DNA of 64,000 nucleotides, from assembly GCF_003058465.1 (NCBI RefSeq), contig NZ_CP028901.1, forward strand, positions 4,092,001-4,156,000, in the 5' to 3' direction. Shown piece by piece: positions 40,793 through 47,759 of the stretch. The position numbers were made by a program, and so were the translations under genes. Positions within the stretch are counted from its first letter, which is position 1. Each line of letters opens with the position of its first letter. Under the pieces are notes generated by a model. That model ran no database searches, was not told the DNA's origin, and worked only from the letters and a program-made list of their open reading frames with translations. Origin of the DNA: Orrella marina. GTDB taxonomy: Bacteria; Pseudomonadota; Gammaproteobacteria; Burkholderiales; Burkholderiaceae_B.

Positions 40793-41548
40793 ATGACTCA
40801 GACTCTTTCCGGAAAGGTTGCGCTTGTCACCGGAGCTGCCCGCGGTATCGGGCGCGCGAGCGCACTCAAGCTTGCAGGCGCCGGTTGCGATGTGATCGTG
40901 AATTATTACAACAGCCATGACGAGGCCCAGTCACTTTGTGAAGAGATCCGCGGCATGGGCCGTAAAGCGCTGCCGGTTCAAGGTAGTGTCGGCATGGCCG
41001 ACAGTGTTCAGGAAATGTTTGATGCGATCAGGGAGGAGTTTGACCGGATTGATATCCTGGTGAGTAACGCTGCCTCGGGGGTCCTCAAACCAGCGATGGA
41101 CATGAAGCTCAAACATTTCAGATGGTGTATGGAGACCAACGCGTTTGCACTCGTAACACTCGCGCAGCATGCTGCTCCCATGATGAAGCAGGGTGGGCGA
41201 ATTGTTGCACTGTCGAGCCTGGGCTCGCAGCGTGCCATGCCTCACTACGGTTTTGTGGGGGCATCCAAGGCTGCGCTGGAATCCCTGGTCAGGACGCTGG
41301 CCCAGGAGCTTGGGCCACAAGGTATCCGGGTCAATACCGTGTCGGCGGGTGTGGTCGATACAGATGCCTTGAGCCATTTCCCGAACCGCGAACAAGTACT
41401 GGAAGAGTTTGCGGCGCGAACGCCAGCAGGCCCCAGACTCACACCGCAGGATGTGGCTGACGCAGTGTATCTGCTGTGCTTGCCGGAAGCACAGTGGATC
41501 AACGGTCATACTTTGCTGGTCGATGGCGGCTTCGCAATTTCAGGTTGA
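40793..41548 (+). CDS. fabL: FabL-type enoyl-[ACP] reductase (SDR family)
   Basis: A 251-residue SDR with the signature of FabL (enoyl-ACP reductase III) rather than FabG. The catalytic pair is spaced Tyr-x6-Lys (YGFVGASK), as in enoyl reductases, not the Tyr-x3-Lys of ketoreductases. The stretch VSAGVVDTDALSHFPNRE closely parallels Bacillus FabL, as does NAASGVLKP. The cofactor motif is GAARGIG. Predicted to reduce trans-2-enoyl-ACP with NAD(P)H, the last step of each elongation cycle. The ATG at 40793 has a weak GGGG upstream. First gene of the acyl-chain cluster. Confidence 0.83.
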   Translation: MTQTLSGKVALVTGAARGIGRASALKLAGAGCDVIVNYYNSHDEAQSLCEEIRGMGRKALPVQGSVGMADSVQEMFDAIREEFDRIDILVSNAASGVLKPAMDMKLKHFRWCMETNAFALVTLAQHAAPMMKQGGRIVALSSLGSQRAMPHYGFVGASKAALESLVRTLAQELGPQGIRVNTVSAGVVDTDALSHFPNREQVLEEFAARTPAGPRLTPQDVADAVYLLCLPEAQWINGHTLLVDGGFAISG

Positions 41549-41582
41549 CGGGCAGGTTTCTCGGAATTTTTAGGGTGATTTG

Positions 41583-42341
41583 ATGGCTTTGGACACAGGA
41601 CTGGCAGGAAAGGTAGCGATCGTGACGGGTGGTTCGCGCGGGATCGGACGCACGATCGTGCAGACGCTCGCAGCAGAAGGTGCGAAGGTGCATTTTTTCT
41701 ATCGATCGGAAGCTGACGCAGCCAGGGAAGTGGTGGACGCAGTGAGCGCCGCAGGTGGGCAGGCAACGGCATGGATGGTCGATGTGACCGATTCCCAGGC
41801 CTGCCAGCAGGCCGTGGAGCAGATCGCGGATCAATCTGAGCGAATCGATGTGCTGGTGAACAACGCAGGGATCGTTCGTGACAATCTGCTTGCCGCAATG
41901 GAAGACGAAGAGATCACATCGGTCTTGCAGACCAATCTCTTCAGTGTGTTTCATGTGACCCGGGCTGTGGTTCCTTTCATGATGTCGCAGCGCAGCGGAC
42001 AAATTGTCAATCTGTCCTCGGTCGCTGCCACCAAAGGTGGGCGTGGGCAGGCCAACTATGCCGCCAGTAAAGGCGCAGTCGAGGCCGTGACGCGCGCACT
42101 GGCGGTCGAGCTTGCCCCCAGAAAGATTCGTGTGAATGCGGTTGCACCAGGTGTGATCGAAACCGCCATGTCGCAGCAGGTCAGGGATCTCGCGGGTGAC
42201 GAGGTCAAATCCCGGATTCTGCTCAAACGGTACGGGCAGCCTGAGGAAATTGCGCAGGCCGTGACGTTTCTGGCCAGTGACCTTGCCAGCTACATTACAG
42301 GCCAGGTCCTGTACGTGGATGGTGGCTTCAAGATGGCTTAG
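41583..42341 (+). CDS. fabG: 3-oxoacyl-[ACP] reductase (FabG-like)
   Basis: A 252-residue classical SDR. Cofactor motif TGGSRGIGRTI, NNAGIVRDN, catalytic Ser/Tyr/Lys in NLSSVAATKGGRGQANYAASKGAVE, and ending YITGQVLYVDGG. The NNAGI-x-RD and QANYAASKG context is typical of FabG. It should reduce the beta-keto group made by the cluster's ketosynthase. ATG 41583 is preferred over the TTG at 41580; AGGG lies about 8 bases upstream. Its Tyr-x3-Lys contrasts with the Tyr-x6-Lys of the preceding enoyl reductase. Confidence 0.9.
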   Translation: MALDTGLAGKVAIVTGGSRGIGRTIVQTLAAEGAKVHFFYRSEADAAREVVDAVSAAGGQATAWMVDVTDSQACQQAVEQIADQSERIDVLVNNAGIVRDNLLAAMEDEEITSVLQTNLFSVFHVTRAVVPFMMSQRSGQIVNLSSVAATKGGRGQANYAASKGAVEAVTRALAVELAPRKIRVNAVAPGVIETAMSQQVRDLAGDEVKSRILLKRYGQPEEIAQAVTFLASDLASYITGQVLYVDGGFKMA

Positions 42342-42447
42342 AATTCCGAAGCCAACCCCTGAGTGCGAGCTCTCTGGAGTAAACTCACGGGTTTGACGTT
42401 AATTACGGAACCAGCGTGCCGTCGCGCACGCCGATATGGAGTAGCTC

Positions 42448-42870
42448 ATGGCTGAAGAAGTCATTACCAAAGAAGAAATCATGGCGGTGTTCCCGACCGT
42501 CCAGAAAACCATGGCGGATGCCCTCGGTTGTGATGAGGAAGACATTGAGCTTGACGTGTCGCTCATCGAAGGTCTGGATGCCGAATCCATCGATTTTCTG
42601 GATATGGTGTTTCGCCTTGAGCGCGCGTTCAAGGTCAAGGTCCCGCGCGGCAAGATTATCGAGGATGTCCGCGGTGACATGCCCGTTGAAGAGTTTGAGC
42701 AAAATGGTGTGCTGACCGAAAAGGGTCTGATTCGTCTGAAAGAGTATCTCTCCGAGATCCCGGACGATCGATTCTCTTCGCCCATGCGCGTCGACCAGAT
42801 CGCCCGTCTGTACACACCAGAAACATTCTGCAAGATGATCATCCGCGCACAACGTGCGGCTGCCAGGTAA
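42448..42870 (+). CDS. Acyl carrier protein, AcpXL-like with C-terminal extension
   Basis: A 140-residue acidic carrier protein, well over the usual 75-95. The core (about 10-85) carries the phosphopantetheine site Ser47 in GLDAESIDFLDMVF; the usual Asp before the Ser is Glu. The DFLDMVF context resembles the specialised AcpXL carriers for very long acyl chains more than housekeeping AcpP (DSLDTVEL). The extra 55 residues (about 86-140) are mixed-charge and probably helical, perhaps a docking element. TGGAG lies 6 bases before the ATG. The gene sits between fabG and the dehydratase. Confidence 0.88.
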   Translation: MAEEVITKEEIMAVFPTVQKTMADALGCDEEDIELDVSLIEGLDAESIDFLDMVFRLERAFKVKVPRGKIIEDVRGDMPVEEFEQNGVLTEKGLIRLKEYLSEIPDDRFSSPMRVDQIARLYTPETFCKMIIRAQRAAAR

Positions 42871-42925
42871 TTCGGCTGGCACCCGTGTGGGTGCATTTGC
42901 CGATTTGCTCATGTTGAGAGGTTGA

Positions 42926-43807
42926 ATGACGCAATCTGCCAGTGCTGGTCCGAGCCGCTTCGCCGCGTTCTCTTTTGTTGATCGCATTACGCTGATCGAT
43001 GGTCTCAGGCGGGTGACGGGAACATATACGATCCCCGCGGATGTGACTGTGTTTCCCGTCAGCCTGGTGGCGGAAGCCATCGGCCAGTTGGCTGCCTGGG
43101 TGGCCATGTCGCACGTGGCTTTCACCCGTCGTCCTGTCGCCGCACTGGCCGGAGCGACTGAAGTGCATTCGCTTCCTGTTGCAGGCCAAAGGCTTGACCT
43201 TGAGGTCGACATCGACAGTTGCGACGAGGATGCTATCGTCTATCGAGGTCGTGCCAGTGTGGATGGTACGCCGGTCCTCACGCTGTCCGACACGCTCGGA
43301 TCGATGCTCGATACCGATCAGTTTGATGATCCTGCCAGGCTTGCTGCAGACTTCGATGTCCTGACAGACCAGGGGTGTGCGTCCGGACGGTTCAAGGGTG
43401 TGGAGCCACCAGCCTTGCAGACAACGGTGCACGAGCCGGGAGTGCGTGTGGAGTCCGAGCTTCGCGTTCCGGACCATGCGGACTTTTTTGAAGATCACTT
43501 TCCGCGCAAACCTGTCTACCCTGCGACCCTGCTGCTCAACGCCATGATGCAGCAGGCCAGTCTGCTTGCCGCAGATGTGATGGCTGGCTCTTTGCAGGTG
43601 CAACGCATCACCCATGTCAAGGTGCGCGCGTTTACGGAGCCGGGCACACAGTTGACGCTGTTTGCAGAGTCTCCGAAGGCTGTCGATGATGATTCAGGTC
43701 TGTGGGTATTCAAAGTTGGTGCAGTCAACGCTGGACGTACGATCGCGGGTGCACGCATATTTTTCAGATCCGCTTCGAAGGCAGCGACCAAATCGCCTTC
43801 ACCGTGA
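42926..43807 (+). CDS. Double-hotdog 3-hydroxyacyl-[ACP] dehydratase-like protein
   Basis: A 293-residue protein made of two FabA/FabZ-type hotdog domains. The N-terminal one has FVDRITLIDGLRRVTGTY and VTVFPVSLVAEAIGQ with Glu50 but no His. The C-terminal one has FFEDHFPRKPVYPATLLLNA with His191, but Asn205 replaces the usual Glu/Asp. FabZ active sites pair a His from one hotdog with an acid from the other, so this pseudo-dimer could have a single composite site (His191 + Glu50). It should dehydrate 3-hydroxyacyl-ACP in the cluster. GAGAGG lies 4 bases before the ATG. Confidence 0.82.
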   Translation: MTQSASAGPSRFAAFSFVDRITLIDGLRRVTGTYTIPADVTVFPVSLVAEAIGQLAAWVAMSHVAFTRRPVAALAGATEVHSLPVAGQRLDLEVDIDSCDEDAIVYRGRASVDGTPVLTLSDTLGSMLDTDQFDDPARLAADFDVLTDQGCASGRFKGVEPPALQTTVHEPGVRVESELRVPDHADFFEDHFPRKPVYPATLLLNAMMQQASLLAADVMAGSLQVQRITHVKVRAFTEPGTQLTLFAESPKAVDDDSGLWVFKVGAVNAGRTIAGARIFFRSASKAATKSPSP

Positions 43808-43864
43808 TCGTCAGATCAACCCACACTTCAATCGACTCTTTAACCACTACCGAGGCCGTCTGCC

Positions 43865-45178
43865 ATGACAGCAAAAACCAGGGTAGCGATCACCGGGATT
43901 GGTCTGGTGACGCCTGCAGGACACGATGTGCAATCGACCTGGAGCCGGCTCAAGGCTGCTCGCAGTTGCGCTGCACCGATCAGCATCTTTGACGCGTCGG
44001 GCTTCTCGACACGTATCGCAGCTGAGGTCCCGGATATCGACAAACTGCCCGATATCGATGACCGCAAGCTTCTCAAATACGCGAGCCGTGCGCACCGTTT
44101 TGCACTGGCTGCTGCAGATCAGGCGCTGGCAGATGCCGGTATCCGGCCCTCATCCGGTGATGCCGGTCGCTGGGGGTGTGTGGTGGGTGCGGGCATGATG
44201 TCGGTGGCACACGACGAGATCGCAGCGGTTCAGCGAGATGCTGCCGTTGACGGAGAACTCAATGCGAGTGCCTTGCTTCAGGTCCCGGTGGCCAACGACG
44301 TCATGGCGTTCAGTCGCAGTCTGTCGACTGCTGGCATCAGTCTGCTGCTGCGTCGCTACGGCATCCGTGGTTACGCGTCGACCGTTCATACCGCATGTGC
44401 GTCCGGTGGACAGGCCGTCGGCACGGCGTTGAGACTGATCCGCAGAGGCGTGGCGGATTGTGTGCTGACAGGCGGATTTGACTCGATGATTTCTCCGGTT
44501 GGCCTGTCCGGATTTTGCTTGCTGTCAGCTGTTTCGCCAGACAATGACAATCCGCAACGAGCCAGTCGGCCGTTTGATGTGACACGCAACGGTTTCGTGC
44601 TTGGAGAGGGGGCCGGCTTTCTGGTGCTGGAGTCGTGGGAGCGTGCTGTTGCGCGTGGCGCAACCATTTATGCCGAGCTTGCGGGGGATGGCAACTCCCT
44701 GTCGTCCTACCGGATCACGGACTCCCATCCTTCCGGGGATGGACCGATCCAGTCCATGCAGCGAGCGATGGCTGATGCCGGTGCCAGTATCGAGGATTTT
44801 GATTATCTGAATGCACACGGGACTTCAACACCGATGAATGATCGCAGCGAATGCGCAGCGGTCAGGGCTGTGTTTGGCGATTACGCTGACCAGATTTCTG
44901 TCAGTTCCACCAAAAGTGTGATGGGGCACCTGATCGCGGCGGCCGGCGCGGTCGAGGCTGCCATTTGCGCCATGGCAATCAGGCAAGGGTGCATGCCGCC
45001 CAACGCGAACCTTCAGCAAGTTGATCCGGATTGTGATGTGAACATCGTTCGTGATGAGCCCCGACACGCGAGAATACGGATGGCGATGTCCAACTCTCTT
45101 GGTTTCGGTGGAAGTAACAGTTCGCTTGCTTTCAGACATCCTGAAGAGACAGCGGCCTTGATCGCACGGGGGTTGTAA
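43865..45178 (+). CDS. Beta-ketoacyl-[ACP] synthase (FabF-like, active)
   Basis: A 437-residue ketosynthase with the full catalytic triad: Cys178 in VHTACASGGQAVG, His in NAHGTSTPMND and His in SSTKSVMGHLIAAAGAVEA. The N-terminal AITGIGLVTPAG and C-terminal SNSLGFGGSNSSLAF are family hallmarks. It condenses an acyl chain with malonyl-ACP. It is paired with a second ketosynthase that starts 2 bp after its stop, a KS-alpha/KS-beta type arrangement. The ribosome site is weak (GAGG), suggesting coupling with upstream translation. Confidence 0.92.
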   Translation: MTAKTRVAITGIGLVTPAGHDVQSTWSRLKAARSCAAPISIFDASGFSTRIAAEVPDIDKLPDIDDRKLLKYASRAHRFALAAADQALADAGIRPSSGDAGRWGCVVGAGMMSVAHDEIAAVQRDAAVDGELNASALLQVPVANDVMAFSRSLSTAGISLLLRRYGIRGYASTVHTACASGGQAVGTALRLIRRGVADCVLTGGFDSMISPVGLSGFCLLSAVSPDNDNPQRASRPFDVTRNGFVLGEGAGFLVLESWERAVARGATIYAELAGDGNSLSSYRITDSHPSGDGPIQSMQRAMADAGASIEDFDYLNAHGTSTPMNDRSECAAVRAVFGDYADQISVSSTKSVMGHLIAAAGAVEAAICAMAIRQGCMPPNANLQQVDPDCDVNIVRDEPRHARIRMAMSNSLGFGGSNSSLAFRHPEETAALIARGL

Positions 45179-45180
45179 AC

Positions 45181-46448
45181 ATGACCAGACTAGTGATTAC
45201 GGGATCGGCCGCCATTTGTGGCGCAGGCCAGACACCTGCGGAGATTGTCGACTCCTTGTTGACAGGAAAACCTGCGATTGCGCCGATTGAGTCGTGGGAC
45301 ACCGCGGGGTGGCCATGCACAGTGGCCTCGACGGTACACCATTACAACGGCGGAAAGCTGCTCGGTGACCGCAAGCTTGTGAAGCTCGTGCGGCGCTCGG
45401 ACGTATTTGGGATCTATGCGGGCGATCAGGCCATTTCCCAGGCCGGGCTGAGCGAGTATCGCCAGACGCTTGAGGAGCGTGCAGCACTGGAGTTTGCCGA
45501 TTCGACTGGTTGCTACGTCGGATCGGGTGGTGGTGCATTCGAAGTGAATTACGATTACTTTCCGTTGATGGCAGAGACTGGCGCGGACATGCAGGCGTTT
45601 GGTCAGGAACTGTCCAGTATGGTCAATCCGATGTGGCTTCTGCGCTCGTTGCCTAACAATGTGTTGTGTCACATCAGCATTCGACACCAACTCAAAGGTG
45701 TCAACGGTTGTATCACCAATCACACAACCAGCGGCATGCTTGCGCTGATCGAGTCTGCGTGGGCCTTGCGCGAGGGTGAGGCCGAGCGGGTAGTGGCGAT
45801 TGCTCACGATGCCCCGGTCGAACCCCAGACACTCCTCTATCTTCACCGGGTCGGTTTGCTGGCCAGTGAGCATGCCACGCCGTTTGATCGTCGCCATGCG
45901 GGATGTTTGCTCGGCGAGGGTGCGGGATCGATGGTGCTGGAAACCGAAACCTCTGCGCTTGAGCGGGGGCTACGATCCTGGGTGAGTATCTGGGCGGTGG
46001 TGACTGCACTGAGGGTGAGAGTCTCTTTGATGTGCGCGAAGACGGTGACGGTGTGCGTCGAAGCATAGTGAGTGCCCTCCATGACGCTGGCGTTGCGTTT
46101 GAGGACATTGGACTCATCGTTTCGCACGGTAATGGCACGCCCGCGTCAGATCGTTCAGAGGCGGTCGCATTGAGATCGATATTTGGGGATGCCATGCCCC
46201 CGGTGACATCAGTCAAATGGTCTGCCGGACACCTTTTTGGGGCGGCTGCATTGCTTGACCTGGCAGTCGGACTGGAGTGTGCTCGCAGACAAGTAGTGCC
46301 GGGTATTGGTAACCTTGAGCAGATAGCGCCGGGGTGCGAGGGAATCAATGTCAGTGCGGCTTCGCGTTCAGCTGCGTCCGGGATCGTGCTGGTGATTTCC
46401 CGCGGTTTTGGGGGTACCAATTCGGCGGTCCTGTTACGAGCTGTCTGA
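45181..46448 (+). pseudogene. Cys-less ketosynthase (KS-beta/chain-length-factor-like), frameshifted
   Basis: A second ketosynthase in two frames totalling about 422 residues. At the nucleophile position the sequence is ITNHTTSGMLALIE: Thr182 replaces the Cys, so it cannot form the acyl-enzyme. Both histidine regions remain (VSHGNGTPASD; VKWSAGHLFGAAA). That is the pattern of a KS-beta partner setting chain length. The frame is lost at five G (45965-45969); one added G gives LERGATILGEYLGGG and continues to the stop at 46448. As written, the product ends at 46068 without its C-terminal third. Sequencing error in the homopolymer is a strong alternative. Confidence 0.84.
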
Positions 46449-46544
46449 TTCAGGGCACCTCGATTCACCCGGATGGTACGCCTGCGATGGTAGATGTGAC
46501 GGGCTGGTATGTTGACTCATGTCAACGACGCAAGGAGTTTAGCG

Positions 46545-47759
46545 GTGGGAGAGTTCATATCATCTCGTCAAACCTGCTCCGGGATTGAGAACGAGTACAG
46601 GCTGCCATTGGACCGTGAAGAAGCCTTGAGGTACCTGGATTCCAGTGAGTCTGACAGGGCTGACCGGAGATCAAGGGCAAACAATTCGTCTGACCCGGCG
46701 GGTTTTCTTGCTGCCGAGCTTGCGCTGCAAAAGCTTTGTCTGGAAGTAATGGCAACGGACGCTCGCGCAGAGCGTATCTGTGAGTCAGATTTTCTGGTCG
46801 AATCGCTACAAAGTAACCAGATCAACCTGAGATTGAGCGGTCGGGCGCGGCGAGCTTTAAATCATCACCTTCTAGAGAGTATTTCTGCTCGCATCGAGGA
46901 GGATGGCCAAACTTTGGTGGTCGTGCCCGTAGAAATGTCGTTGCCGGTCACTCGTGCAGGGCGATTCATTGGACGATTCCTGCCGTACCGCAGAAAGGTG
47001 ATCGAGCAGGGCATGCGACGTGTGTATGGCGAACGCGTCAGTTCTGAGCGTCTGCATCAGCTCATGCTGGCCCATTACAGCCATCTTGCAACGCTTTTAT
47101 GGGAGCTGCTGGTTTTCCGGTTCAAGTCTGTTGATGAGCGTGCGGCCAAGGTCCGCGTGCAAGGCGAACAGATGATCATCGAGGCCTTTGAGGCCGGCAA
47201 GGGCATGCTGATCCTGACGGGTCATTTCGGTAATTTCGAGGTCTCGACGGTATCAGGCATCGAGCATTTCCCTCTGGCGAAAGGTAGGATTCATTTTTTG
47301 CGTCGACCAATCAAACCCAGGTGGTTGAGTGACTTTCTGACGCGTCGCTTTAACAGGGCCGGGTTCGGAGTGATTGGCAGGCGAGGGTCGCTTGAAGAAA
47401 TCGTGAACCGGTTGGAGTCAGGCGAAGCGATCGTCTTTCCGTTTGATCAGTACGCTCACAAGCCAGATGGCATCAGTGTTCCACTTTTTGGTGTGCCGAC
47501 CGGGACCTACAAGAGTATGGCCGTGCTGGCGATGGCTACTGGCGCACCGGTGATATCCGGATCCTCCTGGCGTGAGCCAGATGGTTCGCATGTACTCAAG
47601 TTCTGGGGGGCGCTCGAGCCTGTTCAGGACGAAGACGTGGGTAAGGAAATCTCTCGAAACACAGAGATGTACAACCGCGAGCTCGAGCGAATGATTCTGT
47701 ACAAGCCCGAGCAATGGTGGTGGGTGCACCGTCGCTGGAAGAACGCGCCTGCAGTCTGA
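46545..47759 (+). CDS. LpxL/HtrB-family lipid acyltransferase with N-terminal extension
   Basis: A 404-residue member of the lipid A late acyltransferase (lysophospholipid acyltransferase) family. The catalytic H-x4-E is His227-Glu232 in LTGHFGNFE; FPFDQYA and the C-terminal EQWWWVHRRWK are further hallmarks. LpxL proteins are about 300 residues; the first 100 or so here (mixed charge, no clear TM) are extra. The GTG at 46545 has AAGGAG 7 bases upstream and is preferred over the ATG at 46509. Last gene of the acyl-chain cluster, so it probably transfers that product from ACP to a lipid at the inner membrane. Confidence 0.86.
   Translation: MGEFISSRQTCSGIENEYRLPLDREEALRYLDSSESDRADRRSRANNSSDPAGFLAAELALQKLCLEVMATDARAERICESDFLVESLQSNQINLRLSGRARRALNHHLLESISARIEEDGQTLVVVPVEMSLPVTRAGRFIGRFLPYRRKVIEQGMRRVYGERVSSERLHQLMLAHYSHLATLLWELLVFRFKSVDERAAKVRVQGEQMIIEAFEAGKGMLILTGHFGNFEVSTVSGIEHFPLAKGRIHFLRRPIKPRWLSDFLTRRFNRAGFGVIGRRGSLEEIVNRLESGEAIVFPFDQYAHKPDGISVPLFGVPTGTYKSMAVLAMATGAPVISGSSWREPDGSHVLKFWGALEPVQDEDVGKEISRNTEMYNRELERMILYKPEQWWWVHRRWKNAPAV

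Follow-up and report, generated by a model that had tools for sequence, protein, structure and literature searches.

A rare operon of Orrella marina and relatives predicted to join a reducing type II acyl synthase to an LpxL-type lipid acyltransferase

A seven-gene operon of linked acyl-chain genes

The genome of Orrella marina holds an operon for what is probably a dedicated type II acyl synthase of the reducing kind, working together with a lipid acyltransferase; the product would esterify a lipid of the inner membrane. The DNA analysed, hereafter the window, comprises 64,000 nucleotides (positions 4,092,001-4,156,000) of the 4.23 Mb single-contig genome, and the operon occupies window positions 40793..47759. 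All seven genes lie on the + strand, in the order enoyl reductase (ER), ketoreductase (KR), acyl carrier protein (ACP), dehydratase (DH), ketosynthase (KS1), ketosynthase-like partner (KS2) and acyltransferase (AT). An earlier note, made from the letters alone, had picked out the seven genes, and it gave them with the correct strand, order and coordinates. The features, with lengths in amino acids (aa) and model scores in bits, are as follows.

40793..41548, +, ER: FabL-type enoyl-ACP reductase, 251 aa; NF005975 352.7 bits, cut-off 328; Tyr152, Lys159
41580..42341, +, KR: FabG-like ketoreductase, 253 aa; 251 bits with NF009466 (FabG subfamily), cut-off 222
42448..42870, +, ACP: dedicated acyl carrier protein with C-terminal extension, 140 aa; PF00550 33.9 bits, cut-off 20.8
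42926..43807, +, DH: double-hotdog dehydratase, 293 aa; PF07977 49 bits in the second half; model with hotdog-type matches
43865..45178, +, KS1: ketosynthase, 437 aa; PF00109 and PF02801; own clade
45181..46448, +, KS2: ketosynthase-like partner, Thr replacing the catalytic Cys, split over frames 45181-46068 and 46032-46448; first piece matches PF00109, second PF02801
46509..47759, +, AT: LpxL-family acyltransferase with a degenerate AcpS domain, 416 aa; PF03279 114.9 bits, cut-off 22.3
46581..46934, +, AT residues 25-142: domain of AcpS fold, probably inactive here
46986..47756, +, AT residues 160-416: domain of LpxL/PatA fold

The linkage of the acyltransferase to the other genes is conserved. 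An ACP-baited scan of named genomes gave 87 relatives, the best 80 of which were kept as loci (numbered L below); the bait was built from four betaproteobacterial ACPs, so that distant members are under-counted. The full gene order was found in 58 of the 80 loci, another 17 lose genes at contig ends only, and the five true departures are all from Verrucomicrobiota, two of them (L104 and L119) lacking ER and three (L099, L103 and L116) consisting of ER-KR-ACP alone. The genome of L099 carries DH-KS1-KS2-AT on another contig; those of L103 and L116 gave weak LpxL matches only, plus a short AcpS-like piece in L103. This gene-order search supports the claim of a reductive elongation cycle that has a carrier of its own and is linked to a lipid acyltransferase.

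The operon was found in Betaproteobacteria, in Verrucomicrobiota and in two metagenome-assembled genomes labelled Methylomirabilota. The closest ACPs among named genomes come from Alcaligenaceae or Burkholderiaceae, including Zwartia, Jezberella and Sheuella. The operon is rare. Within the order, 6 of 399 genomes, counting this genome, have AT, and a DH search of 81 close relatives gave four long matches including the window, the other matches listed being partial hotdog. In the phylum of genome G470 a full-length AT was present in one of 288 genomes, namely G470; two LpxL-only matches there proved to be stand-alone genes with no operon alongside.

KS1 and KS2

The two genes described as ketosynthases differ in their catalytic residues. 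KS1 has the full set, with Cys178, His318, Lys350 and His355 kept in all 70 aligned rows. The same description does not fit KS2, which in the window has Thr in place of Cys and is split in two frames. The state of the Cys position, read from two alignments covering 65 copies, is Thr in 23, Ser in 23 and Cys in 19, i.e. Thr or Ser in 46. Thr is found in all 22 Alcaligenaceae-type rows plus the window copy, Ser in all 22 other betaproteobacterial rows, and the two rows labelled Methylomirabilota have one Ser and one Cys. The remaining His, Lys and His are retained in 64 of 64 relatives. A presumably active ketosynthase stands beside a Cys-less partner in the window and 45 other rows, and 19 rows keep the Cys in KS2. 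With its catalytic Cys replaced, KS2 of the window's lineage cannot work as an ordinary ketosynthase and is most likely a chain-length-factor-like partner, of the sort known from ketosynthase/chain-length-factor pairs such as those of aryl polyenes (PMC8358021). At the short end of their open reading frame calls, the KS2 proteins of relatives measure about 422-430 aa; both ketosynthase halves are present. In sequence searches of the PDB, KS1 and KS2 matched only FabF-type and other ketosynthases.

In the ketosynthase tree, KS1 and KS2 form clades of their own (100/100 and 94/97, respectively), both apart from the FabF, aryl-polyene and rhizobial rows, and the Verrucomicrobiota rows group together inside each. 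Neither outcome named in the earlier note as refuting it was observed: KS1 does not fall among aryl-polyene or FabF rows in this tree, and the acyltransferase linkage is conserved. A node with 97/88 unites KS1 with FabF1XL and one aryl-polyene pair, and KS2 and FabF2XL sit on long branches. The FabF rows came from 6 of 21 FabF-match loci plus this genome's FabF; L147 contributed no row and L148 no FabF1XL row.

The acyltransferase and its AcpS domain

AT is a member of the LpxL superfamily, as judged by PF03279, by its fold and by the H-x4-E motif, whose His and Glu are present in 61 of 61 rows. This agrees with its description as a lipid acyltransferase, which overlooked an additional N-terminal domain with the fold of AcpS (holo-ACP synthase). 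The best fold match of the acyltransferase domain was PatA, and AT scored below the curated cut-off of each named LpxL-type model that it matched, among them NF005120, which we take to be the LpxXL-type model (88.8 bits, cut-off 273). The AcpS fusion and these scores set AT apart from LpxM/LpxL and from the mycobacterial PatA acyltransferases. Outgroup branches measuring from 0.8 up to 8.5 changes per site made the AT tree unusable for deep placement, and it lacked the LpxXL proteins of L147 and L149.

The Pfam model PF01648 was run on eight AT proteins, of which five passed, L042 fell just under (23.9 bits, cut-off 25) and two had no match; five of the six relatives that have the domain therefore passed. 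The N-terminal domain of the window's AT gave no match to this model. Both metal-ligand positions of AcpS are kept in 59 of 61 copies, the exceptions being the window and L040, from a genome of the same genus. A GTG at 46545 behind AAGGAG, read by eye, is a possible alternative start of AT.

The N-terminal domain shares its fold with AcpS and with the phosphopantetheinyl transferase (PPT) domain of fungal fatty acid synthase (FAS), and in relatives it also shares PF01648 and both metal ligands. As in fungal FAS, the PPT domain in the relatives' AT is an integral part of the pathway in which it would act. Unlike both, it is fused to a lipid acyltransferase, and it is degenerate in the window and L040. 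Neither this gene set nor an AcpS-LpxL fusion is described in the titles and abstract openings listed by searches of the open PMC literature, which does not by itself mean that they are absent from print.

Enoyl reductase, ketoreductase, carrier and dehydratase

On its sequence, ER is a FabL-type enoyl reductase, as had been claimed: it exceeds the cut-off of the curated FabL model and has the Tyr-x6-Lys motif, whose Tyr and Lys are kept in every true ER row aligned. Its nearest solved chain by sequence is the FabL-type 3oic. In KR, Ser147, Tyr160 and Lys164 are kept in all 76 aligned rows, and Ser47 of the ACP is kept in 80 of 80. The C-terminal extension of the ACP, residues about 75-140, has strongly conserved positions, including Thr126, Phe127, Cys128 and Lys129.

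The predicted model of DH (pLDDT 89.5) matched hotdog proteins broadly and with high rmsd, no single enzyme being singled out. Glu50 of the first hotdog is kept in 72 of 73 rows (the remaining row has X) and His191 of the second in all 73. The second hotdog's acid position, residue 205, is variable (D in 48, N in 19, others in 6). FabZ and FabA build each active site from two subunits, one giving the His and the opposite one the acid. Since Glu50 and His191 are kept while residue 205 varies, a comparison with this cross-subunit arrangement points to one composite active site in DH.

Genomic setting

Housekeeping-type FabF, ACP and FabG genes are located elsewhere in this genome, at 1.96 Mb, in an FAS region judged by eye. 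Two FabI-like genes, both below the cut-off of the FabI-type model, two LpxL genes besides AT and two further phosphopantetheinyl transferase genes are also present. The separate FAS region, the FabI-like genes and the other LpxL genes set the operon apart from the housekeeping set. Membership in housekeeping FAS was rejected, given the separate KS1 clade and these other genes, as was the idea that FabL is the sole enoyl reductase of the genome. Two more strong ketosynthase matches were observed outside the window (2472512-2473261 and 251477-252217), one of them in an open frame of 1779 aa that is perhaps type I PKS-like.

The GC content of the cluster (57.4 percent) is close to that of the window (56.8 percent), and a recent foreign island is unsupported. 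Promoter-like and terminator-like sites at the operon showed no excess over shuffled expectation. A plasmid search with the KS1-AT DNA returned a single 98-base match (a Kosakonia plasmid) and no cluster.

Proposed function of the operon

The gene set would work as follows. In most relatives, the AcpS domain of AT would load phosphopantetheine onto the operon ACP; in this genome, where that domain is probably dead, one of the two other phosphopantetheinyl transferases would arm it. Malonate would be loaded by the housekeeping FabD. KS1 would carry out the condensation, probably paired with KS2 in a heterodimer; in betaproteobacteria KS2, its nucleophile swapped for Ser or Thr, would act as a chain-length factor. 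KR, DH and FabL would reduce each added unit, so that the chain would be saturated wherever ER occurs, and the LpxL-type domain would move it from the ACP, the presumed donor, onto a lipid hydroxyl at the inner membrane.

The acceptor may be lipid A or another glycolipid or phospholipid. We regard lipid A and another membrane lipid as equally good candidates, each falling somewhat short of an even chance, and a small head group as an improbable one. An LpxO-like Asp/Asn beta-hydroxylase gene lies downstream in 7 of the 80 loci (L075, L076, L079, L080, L081, L084 and L093), in six of them within 150 bases of AT; it was not found in the window or in the available sequence of the 29 Alcaligenaceae-type loci L040-L068. 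The gene could provide a chain-hydroxylating step. LpxO hydroxylates an acyl chain of lipid A, and the position of the LpxO-like gene downstream of AT thus lends modest support to lipid A as the acceptor in the lineages that carry it.

Several observations weigh against the proposal of a reducing synthase that serves a membrane lipid. The Cys of KS2 is retained in all 18 Verrucomicrobiota rows, so that a chain-length-factor role is not general and KS2 may still condense in that phylum. The Verrucomicrobiota loci L104 and L119 have no ER, and in L111 and L115, also Verrucomicrobiota and counted among the 58 full-order loci, the gene is broken and reduced to a fragment, respectively. In the window, the Glu and Asp positions of the AcpS domain are occupied by Lys and Asn, respectively (a second alignment reads Glu at the Asp position), and the domain is probably inactive; KS2 is split over two frames in this assembly. 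PatA acylates a class of lipid other than lipid A, so that the acceptor need not be lipid A. Finally, fatty acids up to C18 and nothing unusual are given for Zwartia vadi in the available part of its description, though its genome has the operon (PMC10535154).

State of the operon in this genome

The copy analysed here looks partly damaged, and it is conceivable, at rather less than an even chance, that the operon is decaying in this genome and yields no product, in which case the finding is valid for relatives only; this would be compatible with any of the other readings. The frame of KS2 changes between about 45963 and 46068, the second frame being open from 45963, and it is continuous in all 67 relatives holding both pieces. 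The metal ligands of AcpS are lost as well, and the DH search found the operon in just one of eight other genomes of the genus. Decay is opposed by the remaining frames, which are all open, by the retained catalytic residues of ER, KR, ACP, DH, KS1 and AT, and by L040, which shares the AcpS loss yet has an intact KS2. Both halves of KS2 in this genome still align well, and the split fits a recent mutation or a sequencing error. A programmed frameshift is unlikely, because no relative shows a split frame. Function of the proposed synthase in this genome would need the split to be a sequencing error or otherwise not disabling.

Upstream neighbours and a possible small product

Part of the loci L069-L098, together with L094, L114 and L117, have conserved extra genes upstream. 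These encode a condensation-type protein (21 of 80 loci), a lipase-like lipoprotein (21 of 80; two lipoproteins in some loci) and a PEMT/ICMT-type methyltransferase (19 of 80). Of two condensation-type proteins scanned against Pfam, one is above the cut-off; two lipase-like lipoproteins scanned likewise gave no match. Such neighbours could finish a small product, with a small head group or a secondary metabolite receiving the chain. We consider this unlikely, as AT, of the LpxL type, is the last gene of the shared core and none of the three neighbours was found in the window or in the available sequence of L040-L068.

Comparison with aryl polyene and rhizobial clusters

Aryl polyene clusters (ApeO-ApeC, ApeR, ApeQ), as far as the available text of PMC8358021 describes them, also combine a ketosynthase and a partner with a ketoreductase, a dehydratase and an acyltransferase related to membrane lipids. 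It is then imaginable that the operon makes a polyene or partly reduced lipid, with ER acting rarely or on one unit only, and ER is missing or broken in the four Verrucomicrobiota loci mentioned above. The product may differ in those loci. ER is intact in the remaining loci that reach the gene. KS1 reached 256.5 bits with the ApeO-type model NF006587 (cut-off 470) and lies outside both aryl-polyene pairs of rows in the tree. The operon has one ACP, and no starter-activating ligase, second ACP or exporter was recognised in the conserved gene set, nor any aryl-starter gene. Its ketosynthase partner is full length, whereas ApeC, the aryl-polyene chain length factor, is half-size with one thiolase fold in the part of the source available (PMC8358021). 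A polyene product is therefore a poor prospect. The saturated chain suggested in the earlier note may not extend to every Verrucomicrobiota locus.

The rhizobial acpXL cluster was the kinship proposed for the operon at the outset. In A. fabrum, its order is acpXL, fabZXL, fabF2XL, fabF1XL, adh, lpxXL, with no enoyl reductase given in the available portion of the account (PMC11901934). Both systems have their own ACP, a dehydratase, a ketosynthase with a Cys-less partner and a terminal LpxL-type acyltransferase. The rhizobial cluster differs in its gene order, in that no enoyl reductase is given and in that no AcpS domain was seen.

The label of an AcpXL-like carrier was not upheld. The operon ACP scores 34.4 bits with NF005079, presumably the AcpXL-type model (cut-off 83), below its scores with generic ACP models; among 398 Pseudomonadota genomes, 34 have a match above the cut-off of NF005079, and this genome is not one of them. 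FabF2XL (L145, L146, L148 and L149) has Glu at the Cys position in all four copies and has lost the first His and the Lys, both of which KS2 keeps, so that KS2 is far less degenerate. The rhizobial FabF1XL/FabF2XL pair also looks like a ketosynthase plus a dead partner. Because FabF2XL carries these changes and KS2 does not, the likeness is, on the residues compared, one of kind and not of descent; the operon would work similarly, and less closely in the manner of aryl polyene clusters, and is a member of neither. That it belongs to the AcpXL-LpxXL pathway, making a very long hydroxy fatty acid for lipid A, is highly improbable despite the shared logic, since its ACP and AT are far below the curated models, KS1 and KS2 do not group with FabF1XL and FabF2XL, and both FabF2XL and the gene order differ.

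Implications

On a wider proposal, for which we see the chances as evenly balanced, the operon represents an unnamed lipid pathway of Betaproteobacteria and Verrucomicrobiota. In it, a reducing type II synthase would end in a bifunctional AcpS-LpxL-type enzyme that activates the carrier and unloads the chain onto a membrane lipid, with the second ketosynthase seen on its way to becoming a chain-length factor (its nucleophile position being Cys in the Verrucomicrobiota, Ser in the majority of betaproteobacteria and Thr in the Alcaligenaceae type). The fusion of AcpS to the acyltransferase that ends the pathway would unite both ends of the carrier's work in one protein. The lineage states Cys, Ser and Thr of KS2, with the remaining site kept, would form a natural series for the change from ketosynthase to chain-length factor. 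Described strains of Zwartia and Jezberella carry the operon, and Z. vadi is reported to have three unidentified lipids (PMC10535154). The product would therefore be within reach of ordinary genetics and lipidomics.

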